Below, piece by piece: positions 3,225-30,113 of a stretch of 64,000 bases of DNA. This stretch comes from Cliona cf. orientalis. Lineage: Eukaryota; Porifera; Demospongiae; Clionaida; Clionaidae. The notes beneath the pieces are model-generated. The model had not been told where the DNA came from, made no database searches, and worked only from the letters and a program-made list of their open reading frames with translations. The position numbers were made by a program, and so were the translations under genes. Location of the stretch: positions 35,480,694 to 35,544,693 of the forward strand of contig OZ005689.1 in NCBI GenBank assembly GCA_963930775.1. Reading direction: 5' to 3'. The first letter of the stretch is position 1. Each line of letters starts with the position of its first letter.

Positions 3225-3660
3225 GGCAAAGGAACATCAGATCATTTGTACAATGGTGCACCTATCAGCAAAGAAACCAGTTGTTTTTCAATTTATCGGT
3301 TTGCTGCTTCAAATCATCTTACCGACAAAGCTACCCAAGAGCTGTTGGACCTCATCAGTCTTCACTGTCCCACACCTAATTCTTGCCCTATTTAAGGTCT
3401 CTCCATTCCACATTCCAATGTATGAACCTGTTTTTATGATTTTCTCCGGATTCTGCATGCATTATAACCGAGAAAGTAGGTTCAAAGTGCAGCATCATAG
3501 GTACCATTGTGGTTGGCTTGAGAAGGGGATCTCTCCACCCCCTCATTTCTTGGGACAGAAGGATGGGAGACTGGACATCTTATCTTTGTTGAGAGTGGTA
3601 GATGCTGTGCTCAAGACAAACACTTCACAAGTAAGAAAAATACATACATACATTGTAACA
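3225..3660 (+). pseudogene. Decayed exon of a transposase-like protein
   Basis: An AG acceptor (TTATGTACAG) precedes an open stretch of about 55 codons with the pattern YNGAPISKETS, then HLTDKATQELLDLISLHCP. It resembles an N-terminal region common in uncharacterised invertebrate transposase-like proteins. Stops and frame changes follow after about 3394; a second frame continues with LDILSLLRVVDAVL to near 3640. No catalytic motif is visible. The assignment is weak and based on remembered pattern only. Confidence 0.3.
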
Positions 3661-3891
3661 TGCATGAAAGCAACATGATGGCAGGGATGAAAAGCTAGTT
3701 GTTGCACCTATTTCTGCATTTGCAACTCTTGATGGAGTTGGTGGTGTGATGTGTATTGGTGTAGTGAGGGTTACACAAGAGAGTTTTGTGATTGGGGAGC
3801 TAATAGGAGTAAGGTTGTATGTATGTATGTACAGTATATCGCATAATGTGACGGTGTTTAAACTTGGTGATTTCGTCTCTGGCCATATAGA

Positions 3892-4301
3892 ATACCGTAA
3901 ACTCTGCTTATTAAGCGCACATTATTTATTAAGCACATGCCCTCTTCTTGTCATAAACTATTGTTTATTAAGCGCATGCGCTTAATAGGCGTGGCGTTCT
4001 ATGAACCTGACCTTGACCGGCTGGAAAGTATTTGGAGTCAGGTATCTTTGGAGAAATGATGGCCACGAATAACGTTATCATGCAAGAAGATCGACAAATC
4101 GCCAGCACTCGTCATCTTGAGCGGCAACTGTAAACAATAAAGTGCTCGATCGAGCAAGCGCTAGCGGGCCTCGCATCCATCACATGCCCAAACGTGTGGG
4201 CGTGGTTATGTGCCATATAAGCTCATATCCTTTATTAAGCGCATACTGTCATTCCGTTTACTGCTATAAGCGCATGGCTTATTAACCGGAGTCTACGGTA
4301 T
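3892..4301. mobile_element. Miniature element, ATACCGTA-ended family, copy 1
   Basis: The terminal inverted repeats are ATACCGTAAACTCTGCTTAT and, reversed from the right end, ATACCGTAGACTCCGGTTAA. Both are followed by subterminal copies of TTATTAAGCGCATGCGCTTA. It is about 410 bp and non-coding. A second copy lies at 36369-36747. Confidence 0.75.
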
Positions 4302-20543: not shown

Positions 20544-21088
20544 GATTATTTAGTAATGTTCAGTGTTACCACACTTTCCCCCTTCTCAAGTTTATAACAT
20601 CTTAAATCTCATTCTGTCCATATCATGCTGGGGGTGTTGTGCTTCGAGTTGAACGGCGAAGTGTGGGATTCGGCTGATTTACGGAGGGTGGCACTACCGG
20701 TGGTCGACGTGGTAAGTTTAAAGCAGACGGATCTGCCTCGGGTGGAGAGTCTCCTCATGCATGTTAAGGCCTGGGCCAGGCCATACGCGCATGCGGAAGT
20801 ATACGGAGAAAATTAAATATTATACGGAGGTGTGGCTATAATATTATACAGAGGCGTGGCTATGGCTGACTTAATTGCAGTCCATCAAGAAGCGAGTGGC
20901 TAGTGAGTTTAGGAAATGTAGTTAGCTATCTACAATGTCAGTCGTTAGCTTAGGTTAGGTCTCTATTTAACGTGTAGTGAATAGTTTGAGTTCGTCGCTA
21001 GGCTTTTCTCGTTCTACAAACCGAGTCAAAGGCGGCAACCGTATCGAGCGATCAAAATATTCATTGAATACGGATTTGAAAAGAGCTA
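20544..21088. other. Left flank of the large transposon; nothing certain
   Basis: A 63-codon frame at 20625-20816 (LNGEVWDSADLRRVALPVVD) contains a good donor-like GTGGTAAGTT but has no recognisable family. ACGGAGGTGTGGCTAT is repeated at about 20823 and, varied, at 20848. The TA at 21087-21088 is the target dinucleotide of the element that follows. Confidence 0.35.
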
Positions 21089-21303
21089 GAGTAAGCGATC
21101 AATAACTGGCCGGACCAATTTTCGGACGCTCACTCCGGGAGAACGGAAAGAGATATGGACTCAGCTCTTGCACCAGATTGTAGCTCGGTCTCTGCGCTAC
21201 TTGCAAACCGGCGATGATCCCTGAGCGTTCATGCATAATGACGTCATCGCGCTAAATTCGCAGCGTCTGAAAACAGCAGTTTTCAGACAAAATAACCGAT
21301 TTT
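21089..21303 (+). repeat. Left terminal inverted repeat of the pogo-type element
   Basis: Matches the reverse complement of the right end at roughly 90% by eye. Landmarks: GAGTAAGCGATCAATAACTG, GGAGAACGGAAAGAGATATG, CTACTTGCAAACCGGCGATG and a TGACGTCA palindrome near 21240. Confidence 0.85.
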
Positions 21304-21518
21304 CGGACTCTGGCTGCGGAAATTGCCTACAGCATGGGCAAGCTCCATCGTTGGTACTCAAATAACCCTAAACCCTTCCCATTTTAACCCTCCAATAGTT
21401 GACCGCAGGTACGCTCTTTTGTGGTTTTACACATCCGGTTTGCATACGTTAAAACATAATCAATATTCGGACAGCAATATCTTTTAATACAAAACACCAT
21501 GCAAAATGATTTGATTGT

Positions 21519-24500
21519 TCAGGGCCCACAGCGGTTGCATTTCCACTGCTGTGGAGGTTTCTTGGCATTTACATGAACGCAAGTAGTATGAAACCATTCT
21601 TGACAAATATCACAAGATATCATTTCTTCATCATATTCTTCAGGCATTCTGCAGATACAGTAGAGCTGAATCTTGTGGACCACAGGAGTTGGACGGGGTA
21701 GCATTTCACTGTCAGATGTTATTGGAAAGGGAGTAAGCATTCCTTTTGTAAGACAAGCAAAGAGATGTTCACGCATTTTTTTCTGGATAAAGGAAGCACA
21801 TTGCGGCTTTCTGCCCAAACAAACTTCCACAGCATAGGCAATAGCAAATAGTCCACAGTCTAATGTTCCATGTTGTTGTTGAACAGACATCTTATGAATT
21901 TGCAAAACTGATTGAGATTTGGGAAGTGAATAAATCTTTGCTATTTGTAGGACAGTAAAGAGATTTAGTGACATGAACAGTCCAAGACTATCCATCACAT
22001 GCACAATAGATCCACCTTGGCGACTGGTGCATATCCAATGGTTGGACTTGCCTGCATTTGTGTGCATCTATTTTATCACTGTTACGCACATAAAAACAAT
22101 TATGCCTAACCTGTGTGTAGAATCTGAACACAATTAACATCACTTGATATTGGCATGTAATCAAGGTGATGACCTAGAAGAGTGTCCTGCAAGCCAGCAA
22201 TGTGAGGAAACTGTAGGCTCAGTAGAGTGTGCACCGCATTAATAATGTTCTCCGTCAGCTCCCCTTGAGATAATAGTGCAGTTTTGTCATCCTGATAAAG
22301 ACCAAGAGCTTGTATCCACCAATCAAACACAGGATCAGGATCAAATTCATTAATCTCAATTGGACTTAAGCTGCTTGCATATTCAAAAGCATTCCCCATT
22401 GGTTGATCAGAATAAGGGGAATTTCCCACAGCTGAATCTTCAAGATCTGATGGAGGAGAGGATGCTGCATCCGGAGATGCTGCCCTCTGACCTCTCCTGC
22501 TCCGCTTGGGTACAGTGACTCCAGCACGTGTGTCTGAAATTAACGATGACATGTTTACATGACATTTTACATGTTTCACATGTTTTCAACATTATATTAC
22601 CTTCTTTTGCTAGGACTGGCGGAGGTGAGGATGCTGCTACTGGAGATGCTGCCTTCTGACCTCTCCTGCTTCGCTTGGGTACAGTGACTCCAGCACGTGT
22701 GTCTGAAATTAACGATGACATGTCTACATGACATTTTACATGTTTCACATGTTTTCAACATTATATTAATTACCTTCTTTTGCTAGGACTGGCGGAGGTG
22801 AGGATGCTGCTACTGGAGATGCTGCCTTCTGACCTCTCCTGCTTCGCTTGGGTACAGTGACTCCAGCACGTGTGTCTGAAATTAACGATGACATGTCTAC
22901 ATGACATTTTACATGTTTCACATGTTTTCAACATTATATTACCTTCTTTTGCTAGGACTGGCGGAGGTGAGGATGCTGCTACTGGAGATGCTGCCTTCTG
23001 ACCTCTCCTGCTTCGCCTGGGTACAGTGACTCCAGCACGTGTGTCTGAAATTAACGATGACATGTCTACATGACATTTTACATGTTTCACATGTTTTCAA
23101 CATTATATGCACCTTCTTTTGTTAGGACTGGCGGAGGTGAGGATGCTGCTACTGGAGATGCTGTCCTCTGACCTCTCCTGCTCCGCTTGGGTTCAGTGAC
23201 TCCAGCACGTGTGTCTGAAATTAATGATGACATGTCTACATGACATTTTACATGTTTCACATGTTTTCAACATTATATTACCTTCTTTTGCTAGGACTGG
23301 CGGAGGTGAAGATGCTGCTACTGGAGATGCTGTCCTCTGACCTCTCCTGCTCCGCTTGGGTTCAGTGACTCCAGCACGTGTGTCTGAAATTAACGATGAC
23401 ATATCTACATGACATTTTACATGTTTCACATGTTTTCAACATTATATGCACCTTCTTTTGCTAGGACTGGCGGAGGTGAGGATGCTGTTACTGGAGATGC
23501 TGCCTTCTGACCTCTCCTGCTTCGCTTGGGTACAGTGACTCCAGCACGTGTGTCTGAAATTAACAATGACATGTCTACATAACATTTTACATGTTTCACA
23601 TGTTTTCAACATTACATTACCTTCTTTTGCTAGGACTGGCGGAGGTGAGGATGCTGCTACTGGAGATGCTGCCTTCTGACCTCTCCTGCTTCGCTTGGGT
23701 ACAGTGACTCCAGCACGTGTGTCTGAAATTAACGATGACATGTCTACATGACATTTTACATGTTTCACATGTTTTCAACATTATATTAATTACCTTCTTT
23801 TGCTAGGACTGGCGGAGGTGAGGATGCTGCTACTGGAGATGCTGCCTTCTGACCTCTCCTGCTTCGCTTGGGTACAGTGACTCCAGCACGTGTGTCTGAA
23901 ATTAACGATGACATGTCTACATGACATTTTACATGTTTCACATGTTTTCAACATTATATTACCTTCTTTTGCTAGGACTGGCGGAGGTGAGGATGCTGCT
24001 ACTGGAGATGCTGCCTTCTGACCTCTCCTGCTTCGCCTGGGTACAGTGACTCCAGCACGTGTGTCTGAAATTAACGATGACATGTCTACATGACATTTTA
24101 CATGTTTCACATGTTTTCAACATTATATGCACCTTCTTTTGTTAGGACTGGCGGAGGTGAGGATGCTGCTACTGGAGATGCTGTCCTCTGACCTCTCCTG
24201 CTCCGCTTGGGTTCAGTGACTCCAGCACGTGTGTCTGAAATTAATGATGACATGTCTACATGACATTTTACATGTTTCACATGTTTTCAACATTATATTA
24301 CCTTCTTTTGCTAGGACTGGCGGAGGTGAAGATGCTGCTACTGGAGATGCTGTCCTCTGACCTCTCCTGCTCTGCTTGGGTTCAGTGACTCCAGCACGTG
24401 TGTCTGAAATTAACGATGACATGTCTACATGACATTTTACATGTTTCACATGTTTTCAACATTATATGCACCTTCTTTTGCTAGGACTGGCGGAGGTGAG

Positions 24501-27500
24501 GATGCTGTTACTGGAGATGCTGCCTTCTGACCTCTCCTGCTTCGCTTGGGTACAGTGACTCCAGCACGTGTGTCTGAAATTAACAATGACATGTCTACAT
24601 AACATTTTACATGTTTCACATGTTTTCAACATTACATTACCTTCTTTTGCTAGGACTGGCGGAGGTGAGGATGCTGCTACTGGAGATGCTGCCTTCTGAC
24701 CTCTCCTGCTCCGCTTGGGTAAAGTGACTCCAGCACGTGTGTCTGAAATTAACGATGACATGTCTACATGACATTTTACATGTTTCACATGTTTTCAACA
24801 TTATATTACCTTCTTTTGCTAGGACTGGCGGAGGTGAGGATGCTGCTACTGGAGATGCTGCCTTCTGACCTCTCCTGCTCCGCTTGGGTTCAGTGACTCC
24901 AGCACGTGTGTCTGAAATTAACGATGACATGTCTACATGACATTTTACATGTTTCACATGTTTTCAACATTATATGCACCTTCTTTTGTTAGGACTGGCG
25001 GAGGTGAGGATGCTGCTACTGGAGATGCTGTCCTCTGACCTCTCCTGCTCCGCTTGGGTTCAGTGACTCCAGCACGTGTGTCTGAAATTAACGATGACAT
25101 GTCTACATGACATTTTACATGTTTCACATGTTTTCAACATTATATGCACCTTCTTTTGCTAGGACTGGCGGAGGTGAGGATGCTGCTACTGGAGATGCTG
25201 CCTTCTGACCTCTCCTGCTTCGCTTGGGTACAGTGACTCCAGCACGTGTGTCTGAAATTAACGATGACATGTCTACATGACATTTTACATGTTTCACATG
25301 TTTTCAACATTACATTACCTTCTTTTGCTAGGACTGGCGGAGGTGAGGATGCTGCTACTGGAGATGCTGCCTTCTGACCTCTCTTGCTCCACTTGGGTAA
25401 AGTGACTCCAGCACGTGTGTCTGAAATTAACGATGACATGTCTACATGACATTTTACATGTTTCACATGTTTTCAACATTACATTACCTTCTTTTGCTAG
25501 GACTGGCGGAGGTGAGGATGCTGCTACTGGAGATGCTGCCTTCTGACCTCTCCTGCTCCGCTTGGGTTCAGTGACTCCAGCACGTGTGTCTGAAATTAAC
25601 GATGACATGTCTACATGACATTTTACATGTTTCACATGTTTTCAACATTATATGCACCTTCTTTTGCTAGGACTGGCGGAGGTGAGGATGCTGCTACTGG
25701 AGATGCTGCCCTCTGACCTCTCCTGCTCCGCTTGGGTAAAGTGACTCCAGCACGTGTGTCTGAAATTAACGATGACATGTCTACATGACATTTTACATGT
25801 TTCACATGTATTCAACATTACATTACCTTCTTTTGTTAGCACTGGCGGAGGTGAGGATGCTGTAACTGGAGATGCTGCCCTCTGACCTCTCCTGCTCCGC
25901 TTGGGTAAAGTGACTCCAGCACGTGTGTCTGAAATTAACGATGACATGTCTACATGACATTTTACATGTTTCACATGTTTTCAACATTACATTACCTTCT
26001 TTTGCTAGGACTGGCGGAGGTGAGGATGCTGCTACTGGAGATGCTGCCCTCTGACCTCTCCTGCTCCGCTTGGGACCTGAGCCAGCAATGCATGACTGAT
26101 AAATTACCAACGATGTGTATGTTCAAATACCATTGCTTTGTTTTTCAAGAGCATGTCCACCTGTGCCATGGTTCCTTTTCGTCAAAATAGGTATATCAGG
26201 GGAAGTACAATCCTGTACAGCTGGCAGTAGTGTTCTTTGATCTTTTCCATTCTGCTTGTTGGCCATGGCTATAATACATACATGCATGATAGTTTAGTAG
26301 CCAGCTAGGAGGCCTTTATATGTACATGCACATGTATATGCACACTGATTTCTAACCTTTTCTGGAAGTACATCTCTTTTGCTGAGGTGAATCCAGTAAT
26401 GGTGACTGGATGAATCCTGCCCTATGACCTCTTCTGGTTTGAGTGGTTGCTGAGTCAGTAGTTTGTGGTTAATACACTGCATTATCATCTTCAGTAAACC
26501 TACCTTTATCCTTCTGAGAGTTAGGCAGAGGGGAATCCATTGATGCACATGTGGATAGTGCCCACTGATCTTTCCCGCTCTTCTGCTTGCATTGAGCTGA
26601 CCATACAAGGCAGTAATTGTGATATCATACATGTAGTATTGAATACGCAATACCACGCTTCTTGTATACTCACAAGCATTCTTGGACGGGAGGGTACGCT
26701 TATGAGGTTGACCGAAGGATGGCCTGTGCTTCTTGGAATCCCAAAGGTTATCACTCTTCTGATTCACCCTGTAAATATCTTCCTCTGAATCCCATGACTC
26801 AGTATCTGTATGATACAGTGTGTATGCATCATTGTGTATACATGTATACGTGCCAGGTTTAAAAAAAGCAACCTTACCATTGTCTCCAAAACTTAGACAA
26901 GAACTTAAGTCAGAAAGTATATGTACACTTTTTTTTGTCTGATGCACATGCTGCTGCTGCTTCAGACCTACAAATACATGTACATGTACATGTGCATGTA
27001 AGTATCGGAACTAGCACGGTTATTAGTGATACATTAATTTTGTTCTTATTAATTAATAATACCTTTTCCCTTTTGTTTAGTATCCATAATTTTTTTGTTT
27101 TCTCTCTCCTGTCTTAATCGTTTTCTCTCTTCCTTCTTTAGCGCTTCTTCTTGCTTGAGTTTTTCTCTCTGCTGAAGCACCTGCAAGTTCTCCAAACTAG
27201 TCAAAATTCGACCAGCAGATTTACCACGTTTAGTTGGGATCTGATTGGGAGGCTTGGGGAGTACCAGGAATTTGCTTATGACAGTAGCACCTGGAAGAGG
27301 AATTCTGGAAGGGGGGTTATCATATGTTTCAAACAGTGACTGGTCCAACAGGTTGGGCTCAGAGGAGGACAGTGGAGTCAAGCGAGATTGTGAATAGCCC
27401 AGTTTGTTCACTGGTGTGGAGTGCGACTGATGAGGAAGCCTCCTATTGACAGATTGCCCTACTGGTATGTGATCATCAGAGGAATGAGCTACAGAACGGC

Positions 27501-28818
27501 GTGCAGGACTGTAGAGTGGTATGTATGCAAGCCCCGTCCTCTCAGCAAGATTACTTGGCTTGAATGAGGAGAATTCATCATCATTAGACAGGTGAACAGC
27601 TCCACGGTTGAATGGACAGATGCCAGTAGCTTTGAAGCTCTTAATGATATTTTCCTGGCTGAAAGCCTTGTACCAAGCTTTAGAGAATAGTTCACAAAAA
27701 TCATGTCTACTCACTGTTCGTCCTGGATTTGATGCACAAAAGTGGTGACAAATTTCCCTCCAATTCACCTTTAAAGGTGAAAAACACCCTTTATCTAACG
27801 GTTGGAGGAGGTGGGTAGTATTTGGTGGCAAAGCACACAACACTACTTTGTCTTCAGCAGCCATCCGGATTGTTTCCGGACAATAATGGGAAGAATGGCC
27901 ATCAAGAAATAAAATTACTGGACGAATAGGTGGAATTGAAAGCAAGAAATGCTTAAACCATTCACGAAAGATATCCCTTGTCATCCATCCATTGTGGGAG
28001 AGGCCATAAACGGTTCCAGGCACTTCACCCTTGGTCATGGCATTATTTAGAGTCATTCTATCAAATATCACCAACGGAGGAATAGGATATCCTGCAGCAC
28101 AAGTACAGGCCATGACAGTAATTTGTGATTTGGAGCCACCAGTGAGATAGCTTGGGTTCTTTGATCCAACTTTATCCACAATCTTCATGCACTTTGGGTC
28201 TAGAGGAACACCCGTTTCATCACAGTTAAAGATGCAGGGTGCCTTATTCAATAGCCCATTAGATTGCAAACAATCTTCCAACATATCGAAGTATCGATCA
28301 ATAACTTCAGGGTCAGATGCCATTGCTCTGGCATACGAAAGTGGTACTGCAACTCGCAAAGTTAATTGCGGATGTCTTTTCAAAAATCGTTCCCACCACC
28401 CGTTAGTGACTGTGGTTGTTATGTCCTTGTTATGGACTATCTGCTGCACCAATGCAATGATTTGCTTTCGAGTATAGGGATAACCGATTTTGGCAGCTTG
28501 AAGGAGGAAACTTGTCAGCTCCTCCTCTTCCTCAGGTGATAAATAAGGTTGAGGCCCAGACCTTGCATCCTCGGCAGTTTTTCCACTGGCTTTATCATGT
28601 AGAGTAGAACGCGGAACATTGTATAGTTCTGCTGCCTTGCGGACACTCACCGTTCCTTTTTCTACAGCTTGCACCGCCTGTTTCATGCTTGTTTTGTCCC
28701 ATGATCGGTATGTGCCACGGCCATAACTGGTAGAATCACTGAATGTAAAAGGGGGTGGTTGTGATGAACTGGCCCTTATGATACGTTTAGAAAGAGGGAG
28801 ATTAAGAGCTGACAGCAT
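21519..28818 (-). CDS. Pogo/Tigger-type transposase fused to exon-repeat array, Ulp1 protease and PHD finger
   Basis: Conceptual 29-exon gene of about 1,780 codons. Exon 1 (28818-27063) holds a psq-type helix-turn-helix (VSVRKAAELYNVPRSTLHDK, residues about 57-76), a second DNA-binding helix region, and a DDE domain with FNCDETGVP, ILFLDGHSSHYCPE and LLQPLDKGC. It ends in phase 1 after a Lys/Glu-rich coiled segment. Exons 2-7 are at 26967-26878, 26805-26674, 26596-26504, 26449-26357, 26268-26161 and 26076-25996. Twenty 102-nt exons follow, then 22533-22111 and 22051-21519. The junctions I read are phase 1 and stop-free. The last two exons give a C48-like protease (His in SNHWICTS, Asp in VHVMDSLG, Gln in QQQHG, Cys in LDCGLF) and a C4HC3 PHD finger (YCICR, CDICQEWFH, CNRC). 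Predicted roles are transposition, deSUMOylation-type cleavage and histone-tail reading. The fusion is inferred from splice phase, not from transcripts. Confidence 0.7.
22440..26076 (-). repeat. Tandem array of exon+intron units, about 170 bp each, 22 copies
   Basis: Each unit holds a 102-nt exon (34 codons; TRAGVTVPKRSRRGQKAASP then VAASSPPPVLAKE) and a 66-71-bp intron with a GT donor and TTAATTTCAG acceptor. Exon starts are at 22533, 22702, 22875, 23044, 23214, 23383, 23553, 23722, 23895, 24064, 24234, 24403, 24573, 24742, 24911, 25081, 25251, 25420, 25589, 25759 and 25928; 26076 is a variant first unit. The lowest-coordinate unit runs on into the Ulp1 region. Each internal exon is a multiple of three and phase 1 at both ends, so any number can be included or skipped without breaking the frame. 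Units from 22770 to 23789 and from 23790 to 24809 form a 1,020-bp higher-order repeat. Confidence 0.9.
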
Positions 28819-29185
28819 GTTAAAAAATAATGCAAGGTTCAGTTGTAGCCAAGTCAGTCTTTCAGGCTCAAGATTTCAGCTGCCACACAGACTCTGCCTG
28901 GTGGAATATAAAGGCTATGATAGGCAGCAGATAATTTTATATCAATTTGAGCTTACCTACGTCCACAGCCAACCAACCAAAAACTGTCCAACTCCGTTGA
29001 TTTTTCAAAAATCACGTGTCCGAACATTGATCACGTGATAAGAACATTTTGCGACAAGCTAATAACCGCAAAACATGAGCCTTGCGGTCAAGCTCCGAGC
29101 TGCACTATCACCTCTAGTAGGCACAATAATAACCTGAATCCGAAGGCTGTGGGGCGCTCTCATAGATTTCTGCGAGCAAAGTTCG

Positions 29186-29400
29186 AAATTTGATCCTTTT
29201 GTCCGAAAACTGATCTTTTCAGCCGCTGCAAACTTAGCGCGATGACGTCACTATGCATGGACACTCCGGGGTCATCGCCGGTTTGCAAGTAGCGCAGAGA
29301 TCGAGCTACAATTTGGTGCAAGAGCGGAGTCCATATCTCTTTCCGTTCTCCCGGTATGAGCGTCCGAAAATCGGTCCGGCCAGTTATTGATCGCTTACTC
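29186..29400 (-). repeat. Right terminal inverted repeat, promoter-proximal
   Basis: Inverted partner of 21089-21303. It lies upstream of the gene's start (28818) and carries the TGACGTCA CRE-like palindrome near 29244, so it probably contributes to transcription; that role is inferred. Confidence 0.85.
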
Positions 29401-29402
29401 TA

Positions 29403-30113
29403 GTATAGGCTCGACATAGGAACTACTCAAGCTACTCTACAAGATGAGCTGCTGGGAGTTGGCATTCATCATCGTGCAAGTCTGTAAAACTCGACAGAAG
29501 GGTGCTCGAGGTAAGCAATTTTTATAAGTAAGTATAGTATGTCTAGCCTTCATGAAGCTTTGAAGCCACATTCCTAGCAGTTTATATTTACATAGCATTT
29601 AACATAAAAATACTAAATAGAAGCCTTCAAGTAAAATCCGTATTTGACATCATTTACCAAGATAGTCGATGACTTCAAAGCCACGCCTACCGATAGTTAA
29701 TATTAACTAAGAGGTGTGGCGAATGTTATTAAAGCAAAGGAAGGTCCACTCTTGTTTGATACCCATCAACTGCTTATAGCCTAGAGTAAAATCAAGTATA
29801 TTATTAACATTTAATGGGCTTTAGTGGCCGAGACAGACCTTAACACCCACGAGTCCATGGTGTGTTCACTTTGGGTGCCCGAGTAGGTCCAAGCAGCATA
29901 TCTGAGACTTCCGTTTCAGTGACCAGCTCAGGGGAACTTTGAACTTCGTGTTTTCTCACGTGATCATGTCTCTTCATCCCGAATTTCATACGATAATGGA
30001 CCTGTAACTTCGGTAATAGTACCAGGTATCCATCTCACCCTGTTTCAATTATCTTTTCTCCACTCTCTCTCCAATCTCAGGTCAAAGCGTGACCTCAACT
30101 TCCTCTTCATTAA
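29403..30113. other. Spacer between two DNA transposons
   Basis: No gene is supported. TTAA at 30110-30113 is the target site of the next element. The sequence from 29820 to 30000 has repeat-like text but no partner was found in the window. Confidence 0.35.

Follow-up and report, generated by a model that had tools for sequence, protein, structure and literature searches.

The closest described relatives of the element reported here are the Ginger1 transposons. In the sections of PMC2836005 on these elements, Bao and colleagues place Ulp1 on Ginger1 transposases and both Ulp1 and a PHD finger on Ginger1-9_HM of Hydra, and they suggest a role for Ulp1/PHD in transposition or repair. A figure in the same sections aligns Ulp1 and PHD with Mutator transposases, and the accompanying text names Ulp1. 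Here, we describe an 8,312-bp pogo-type transposon that occupies positions 21089-29400 of a 64,000-nucleotide stretch of the sponge Cliona cf. orientalis (contig OZ005689.1, positions 35,480,694 to 35,544,693; hereafter, the window). To judge from its sequence, the element very probably carries a single spliced gene, on the minus strand, for one multidomain pogo transposase that ends in an Ulp1-like protease and a PHD finger.

Like Ginger1-9_HM, as presented in those sections of PMC2836005, the window element is of the cut-and-paste kind, has Ulp1 and PHD at the C terminus of its transposase, and has introns in the gene. The two differ in their cores, as Ginger1 has a Gypsy-integrase-like core, whereas the window element combines a CENP-B/pogo-type helix-turn-helix (HTH) with DDE_1 (DD35D) and makes TA duplications. 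Mutator-type elements also join Ulp1, apparently with PHD, to a cut-and-paste element, but their transposase belongs to another superfamily. Crypton and NeSL/Utopia, in the accessible portions of PMC3212892 and PMC4640811, are likewise selfish elements with a C48/Ulp1-like protease, but they are tyrosine-recombinase or non-LTR (long terminal repeat) elements, and the word PHD is absent from those portions of PMC3212892, the one of the two searched for it. Compared with pogo/Tigger elements as treated in the main texts of PMC7386202 and PMC7325037, the window element adds the C-terminal Ulp1-PHD tail, long terminal inverted repeats (TIRs), and as many as 29 exons. Neither main text contains the words protease, peptidase, or PHD, and Ulp1 is absent from that of PMC7386202, where alone it was searched. 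No report of pogo combined with Ulp1-PHD was found among the papers listed from the open-access literature, Repbase and most subscription journals lying outside it. The original prediction, made from the letters of the window, had stated that Ulp1-type genes were not known in the pogo group, and within the same literature, with Repbase Reports outside, the statement held. Its remark that Zisupton-type elements carry Ulp1 found no support there, and it had overlooked that Ulp1 plus PHD was already known on a Ginger1 transposase (PMC2836005, same sections). What is new, as far as that literature goes, is the presence of the pair on pogo.

A single frame, carried across phase-1 introns, joins the transposase, a linker, the Ulp1-like protease, and the PHD finger. 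The predicted gene has 29 exons and encodes 1,792 residues with only a terminal stop; all 28 introns are GT-AG, and every junction is phase 1. The features of the element are as follows, with the basis of each in parentheses.

21087..21088, no strand: left target-site duplication, TA (copy comparison and empty sites)
21089..21323, plus strand: left TIR (arm complementarity; start by copy comparison)
21519..22051, minus strand: last exon, C-terminal half of the Ulp1-like protease plus PHD finger; His 22040-22038, Asp 21992-21990, Gln 21875-21873, Cys 21857-21855, PHD about 21659-21528 (Pfam PHD; SENP1 and PHF2 alignments; cross-family conservation)
22111..22533, minus strand: exon made of the last array unit plus the N-terminal half of the Ulp1 domain (gene model; homologous exons in related families)
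22601..25928, minus strand: 20 tandem array exons of 102 nt each, with introns of 67, 68, or 71 nt
25996..26967, minus strand: six linker exons, all phase 1, at 26967-26878, 26805-26674, 26596-26504, 26449-26357, 26268-26131, and 26076-25996 (gene model)
27063..28818, minus strand: exon 1, pogo-type transposase (Pfam, gene model, positions of catalytic D residues)
29166..29400, minus strand: right TIR (arm complementarity and copy comparison)
29401..29402, no strand: right target-site duplication, TA (copy comparison and empty sites)

Exon 1 encodes a transposase of the pogo superfamily. Three Pfam models score above their cut-offs in the order HTH_psq (residues 43-76, E value of 5.8e-10), HTH_Tnp_Tc5 (residues 95-155, 5.8e-8), and DDE_1 (residues 230-395, 1.9e-24); Pfam found DDE_1 as the core and no integrase model. 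Pogo superfamily transposases have D as third catalytic residue, with a DDxD spacing of about 30 to 36, and pogo/Tigger elements share HTH_psq, HTH_Tnp_Tc5, DDE_1, and a TA duplication with the window element. Here, the triad is D200, D306, and D342, or DD35D, and the CENP-B-type HTH, DDE_1, TIRs, and TA duplication were all found. Relatives of the transposase or of the Ulp1-PHD exon were looked for in viral contigs, and none was confirmed.

The tail is read as an Ulp1-like protease followed by a PHD finger. The last exon matches Pfam PHD at an E value of 1.5e-9, with the C4HC3 zinc ligands present, and a finger profile built from eight family members matches the solved fingers of PHF2, PHF8, EBS, and BPTF. 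A protease profile from eight members matches SENP1 at 4.1e-5 and a Ulp1-like SUMO protease at 9.1e-5, and over the catalytic half the His, Asp, Gln, and Cys line up. Moreover, the eight members, when aligned, show no variation at the Asp, Gln, or Cys of the protease or at zinc ligands one to six of the finger; one of them is truncated ahead of the His and another ahead of the final ligands. The original prediction had read each of these parts, namely, an intact pogo-type DDE transposase exon, Ulp1 His-Asp-Gln-Cys motifs and a C4HC3 PHD finger in downstream exons, and phase-1 junctions giving one protein of about 1,780 residues; the Pfam matches, the SENP1 alignment, and the gene model bear this out, the last with a length of 1,792 residues. 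The tandem exon array in the middle of the gene was not part of that prediction.

Several observations weigh against reading the protease as a SUMO protease. Membership in Ulp1/C48 rests on the order His-Asp-(Gln)-Cys and on similarity to C48 by profile, as single sequences score below the Pfam cut-off: the last exon alone gave an E value of 0.018 against C48, and C48 was below cut-off in all five proteins for which it was listed (it was not listed for the copy L013). In a more distant family, L038, the YopJ acetyltransferase model scores 22.5 bits against 17.2 for C48, both below cut-off, and the protease profile also matches C48-type chains named OtDUB and RickCE. The substrate, and even the chemistry, may therefore differ from SUMO cleavage; SUMO, ubiquitin, and other tags are all candidate substrates. 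When the last exon alone was modeled by AlphaFold2 from a single sequence, the mean predicted local distance difference test score was 36.8, too low for a fold to be read. In the finger, the profile alignment matches a Tyr before the first Cys, a Met, and a Trp to residues of PHF2. These are candidate aromatic-cage positions for trimethylated lysine 4 of histone H3 (H3K4me3), with the fourth cage position shifted by two residues, and binding is putative.

The window element moved as one piece between its TIRs with a TA duplication. The inverted arms (21086-21323 and 29166-29403) are 238 nt long including the TA and 88% complementary, and the exact tip, set by aligning the ends of related copies, is TA followed by GAGTAAGCGATCA. 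Of the original prediction's termini of about 215 bp with TA flanks, the flanks stood and the length did not. Left-flank sequence has 23 matches including itself, with 11 other long copies 79 to 90% alike, and the insertion target (window positions 20720-21086 and 29403-29700) is itself a dispersed repeat. All three copies of the target repeat that were fetched (L080 to L082) continue through the insertion point, where they have one TA, into the right flank of the window. In detail, L081 has a different base after the TA, and the window is without about 11 bases nearby. The exact empty sites indicate, therefore, that transposase, array, Ulp1, and PHD arrived together.

Other copies keep the same order. 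The genome searched comprised 216.8 Mb in 149 contigs. It contains Wnt matches at three places, which marks it as animal, and this number of Wnt genes and this size would suit a sponge. It gave 19 terminus matches, of which 8 come from four two-ended copies (the window, L009, L010, and L013) and 6 were inspected as one-ended pieces of about 9 kb; the remaining 5 were outside the comparison. TA stands at both ends of all four two-ended copies, with flanks that differ from copy to copy, and at the terminus of five of the six one-ended pieces, the exception being L014, with TT. All three of the other two-ended copies have the transposase and then Ulp1-PHD inside the same termini, and thus, no two-ended copy without the tail was found among the four. 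The loss of the tail from other copies inside matching TIRs had been named at the outset as evidence that would tell against the fusion, and over the 14 of 19 terminus matches covered, every two-ended copy retained it. L009 is open throughout, with 17 exons, 1,399 residues, and array exons of 102, 105, or 108 nt. L010, with a transposase 97% alike to that of the window, is broken by an 89-nt second exon and one TAA in the last exon. Each of the six one-ended pieces has a terminus. L011 also retains part of the start of the transposase; in L012 and L017, neither domain was found in the fetched stretch; L014 carries a damaged Ulp1-PHD, and transposase fragments lie just beyond its stretch; and L016 has Ulp1-PHD, with no transposase found in the stretch. 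Finally, L015 has a damaged transposase, Ulp1-PHD was not found in its fetched stretch, and it may be a copy without the tail.

A host Ulp1-PHD gene or another transposon might merely adjoin a pogo element, particularly as Ulp1-PHD matches are numerous, with at least 165 places used after overlapping or second pieces were dropped. Against this, among the matches listed, 24 of 48 long pogo transposase matches have an Ulp1-PHD match within 10 kb downstream on the same strand, and the control arrangements gave 0 of 48 upstream on the same strand and 0 of 48 on the opposite strand on each side. Long matches were those that span at least 360 query positions, and addition of the stop-ridden C17:3777683 makes the count 24 of 49. 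The pair count is a lower bound because only the best 150 of 315 to 375 candidates were scored per search. By our own grouping on identity, the 24 paired transposases fall into about nine groups. Both halves also lie between the termini in all four two-ended copies. We conclude that chance adjacency is ruled out by the exact empty sites together with the strand and side controls, and an accidental neighborhood of this kind is vanishingly improbable.

Could the element instead hold two genes, with transposase and Ulp1-PHD made as separate proteins from separate starts? Some features of the sequence speak for it. Translation past the exon 1 donor would meet a stop codon after 4 to 10 codons in each of the three families read, and retention of intron 1 could therefore yield a transposase-only product. 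Moreover, an in-frame ATG (DQPMGNAF) stands ahead of the protease domain in exon 22533-22111 of the window, so a separate protein is possible by sequence in the window's family, which weighs against a single chain. The distant family L038 points the other way. Its transposase is 41 to 45% identical to that of the window, its TIRs are likewise long (441 bp) and also start TA-GAGTAAGC, and its gene of three exons runs in frame for 960 residues from transposase through PHD. The first Met of its protease exon is residue 194, past His 106, Asp 124, and Cys 167, and the preceding 39-nt exon has no Met; a protease started inside that exon would therefore lose its active site. L038 may still have a 5' exon that escaped notice and is not the transposase, which is a further point for separate products. 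L039 has the same phase-1 exit from the transposase exon as L038 and a phase-1 second exon. A similar cassette is fused without introns in L040 (347-3781), a repeated element with a 1,145-residue intron-free open reading frame ending in Ulp1-PHD, and in the window all 28 introns keep phase 1 and one frame. Separate starts thus appear improbable to us, and we favor the single multidomain chain.

Both halves of the window gene are under purifying selection relative to the nearest intact copy, L009. For the C-terminal half of Ulp1 plus PHD (Ulp1-C+PHD), the two differ by 8 synonymous and 3 nonsynonymous changes (nonsynonymous-to-synonymous rate ratio, dN/dS, of 0.096; Fisher P = 0.0003), and for the transposase exon, by 24 and 18 (0.21; P = 1.1e-6). 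The unique part of the exon with the N-terminal half (Ulp1-N) has 3 synonymous and 2 nonsynonymous changes, giving a ratio of nonsynonymous to synonymous differences (pN/pS) of 0.19 from five differences only. A close pair elsewhere, L029 and L039, gave a dN/dS of 0.091 for Ulp1-C+PHD. Transposase dS is saturated in all three comparisons with other families (L013, L039, and L038), and therefore only dN is used there; between the window and L013, dN is 0.19 for Ulp1-C+PHD and 0.23 for the transposase, at dS 3.2 or saturated. The signal is weaker between the window and L038 (0.37 at a dS of 2.0). Weighing against conservation of the tail, L013 and the fragment L016 gave a dN/dS of 0.54 for Ulp1-C+PHD, with 0.135 for Ulp1-N, and in a 13-row alignment L016 has lost finger cysteines.

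The linker is built largely from a tandem array of about 21 copies (22452-26074) of a 169/170-bp unit, each unit being one phase-1 exon plus a short intron. It consists of 20 exact 102-nt exons, preceded by a shortened unit (the last linker exon, 26076-25996) and followed by one unit fused to the Ulp1 exon. The 734-residue stretch so encoded is rich in Ala, Pro, Arg, and Ser, with a net charge of about +100 and 44 Ser-Pro motifs. The number of units varies among copies, and in the intact sibling L009 the frame is still open. A search for purifying selection on the array peptides by pN/pS in the window and L009 gave no clear sign of it (1.29 among window units, 0.73 within L009, and 0.59 between the two), which counts against a constrained linker sequence. 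Thus, the array keeps its reading frame and keeps its sequence much less, and it shows a transposon gene changing the length of its protein by whole phase-matched exons with the frame unbroken. A recent duplication appears to have copied a six-unit block of 1,020 bp, with 22769-23068 and 23789-24088 being 100% alike.

How pogo came by the cassette was approached with trees that hold elements of this genome only, 22 transposases and 30 Ulp1-PHD sequences. In the transposase tree, the 14 transposases with Ulp1-PHD fall in one 17-row set (support 91/91, not starred), the other three being L045, L046, and L075. In the Ulp1-PHD tree, the pogo cassettes form two sets, the L038 group (99/98) apart from the window's group (88/96), and the L038 set shares its side of the midpoint with L040-type cassettes. 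From these sequences, pogo possibly captured the cassette twice independently, but the approximately unbiased (AU) test rejects neither a single clade for all pogo cassettes (P = 0.18) nor a single clade for the L038-type transposases (P = 0.074). The front part of the L040-type reading frame has no Pfam match, and it may be Mutator-like. Taken to its broadest, the cassette would be an accessory that passes by symmetric phase-1 exons between unrelated animal transposases (Ginger1, a Mutator-like type, and pogo, the last possibly by two captures), a chromatin-guided SUMO eraser and portable countersilencing module with the length of its basic linker set by exon-array expansion; we offer this only tentatively and consider it rather unlikely in full. 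L046 is a pogo transposase with no tail match within 5.9 kb behind it, which weighs against a general need for the tail. Related pogo transposases without nearby Ulp1-PHD indicate, therefore, that the tail is not essential to all.

What the tail does for the element may be framed as follows. The psq/CENP-B-type HTH and DDE core would carry out the cut-and-paste movement of the element, the linker, which is long, basic, and rich in Ser-Pro, would hold the protein on chromatin, and the PHD finger would dock on histone H3 tails, as in PHF2, PHF8, and BPTF. At the element or its target, the tethered protease might then strip SUMO, or a different ubiquitin-like tag, from the transposase or from factors of silencing or repair, and tag removal might help the element to be expressed, excised, or repaired, alongside any transposase-only form from a retained first intron. 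In Caenorhabditis elegans, SUMOylation of HDAC1 promotes Argonaute-directed silencing, as set out in the relevant part of PMC8131101, and a transposon could therefore gain by erasing SUMO. Repair signaling would be an equal candidate to silencing as the target of the protease. Local removal of a ubiquitin-like tag, taken by itself, is conceivable but somewhat doubtful. For the locus as a whole, we think it fairly probable that this is an autonomous-looking pogo-superfamily DNA transposon with one multidomain protein and a tethered-protease role.

The protease could also act on the transposase itself, or serve as a general stability module, for example, in autoregulation or nuclear residence, rather than on chromatin silencing, with the PHD finger steering integration. 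Its position in cis, in the same chain, would suit self-action, and a PHF2/BPTF-like finger could bias insertion to H3K4me3 chromatin; yet the first 600 residues contain only two psi-K-x-E SUMO consensus sites, both in the basic tail. We hold this account to be unlikely, if worth keeping in view, and prefer that of a tethered protease removing tags at the element or its target. The pogo superfamily gave rise to CENP-B and, by domestication, to other host proteins, and it now joins the transposases predicted to carry their own protease for ubiquitin-like tags together with a histone reader. Related tails on transposases of different kinds in one genome argue that the tail serves transposition or helps the element to escape silencing.

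Further observations concern the related elements. L038, together with L084 and L085 (C14:2581882-2589990), is an 8.1-kb element with an array of tandem repeats of about 230 bp behind the gene. In L039, a member of a related family, positions 3358-3951 contain a tandem array of a 227-bp unit behind the transposase exon, perhaps exon bearing. Open frames of roughly 1,100 residues contain many of the Ulp1-PHD matches listed. Behind the pogo transposase of L042 is a reading frame with a weak likeness to PHD. Finally, L041 (788-4174) and L043 (675-3500) are pogo transposases that end, in the same reading frame, in a different Cys-rich finger with weak RING/PHD scores.

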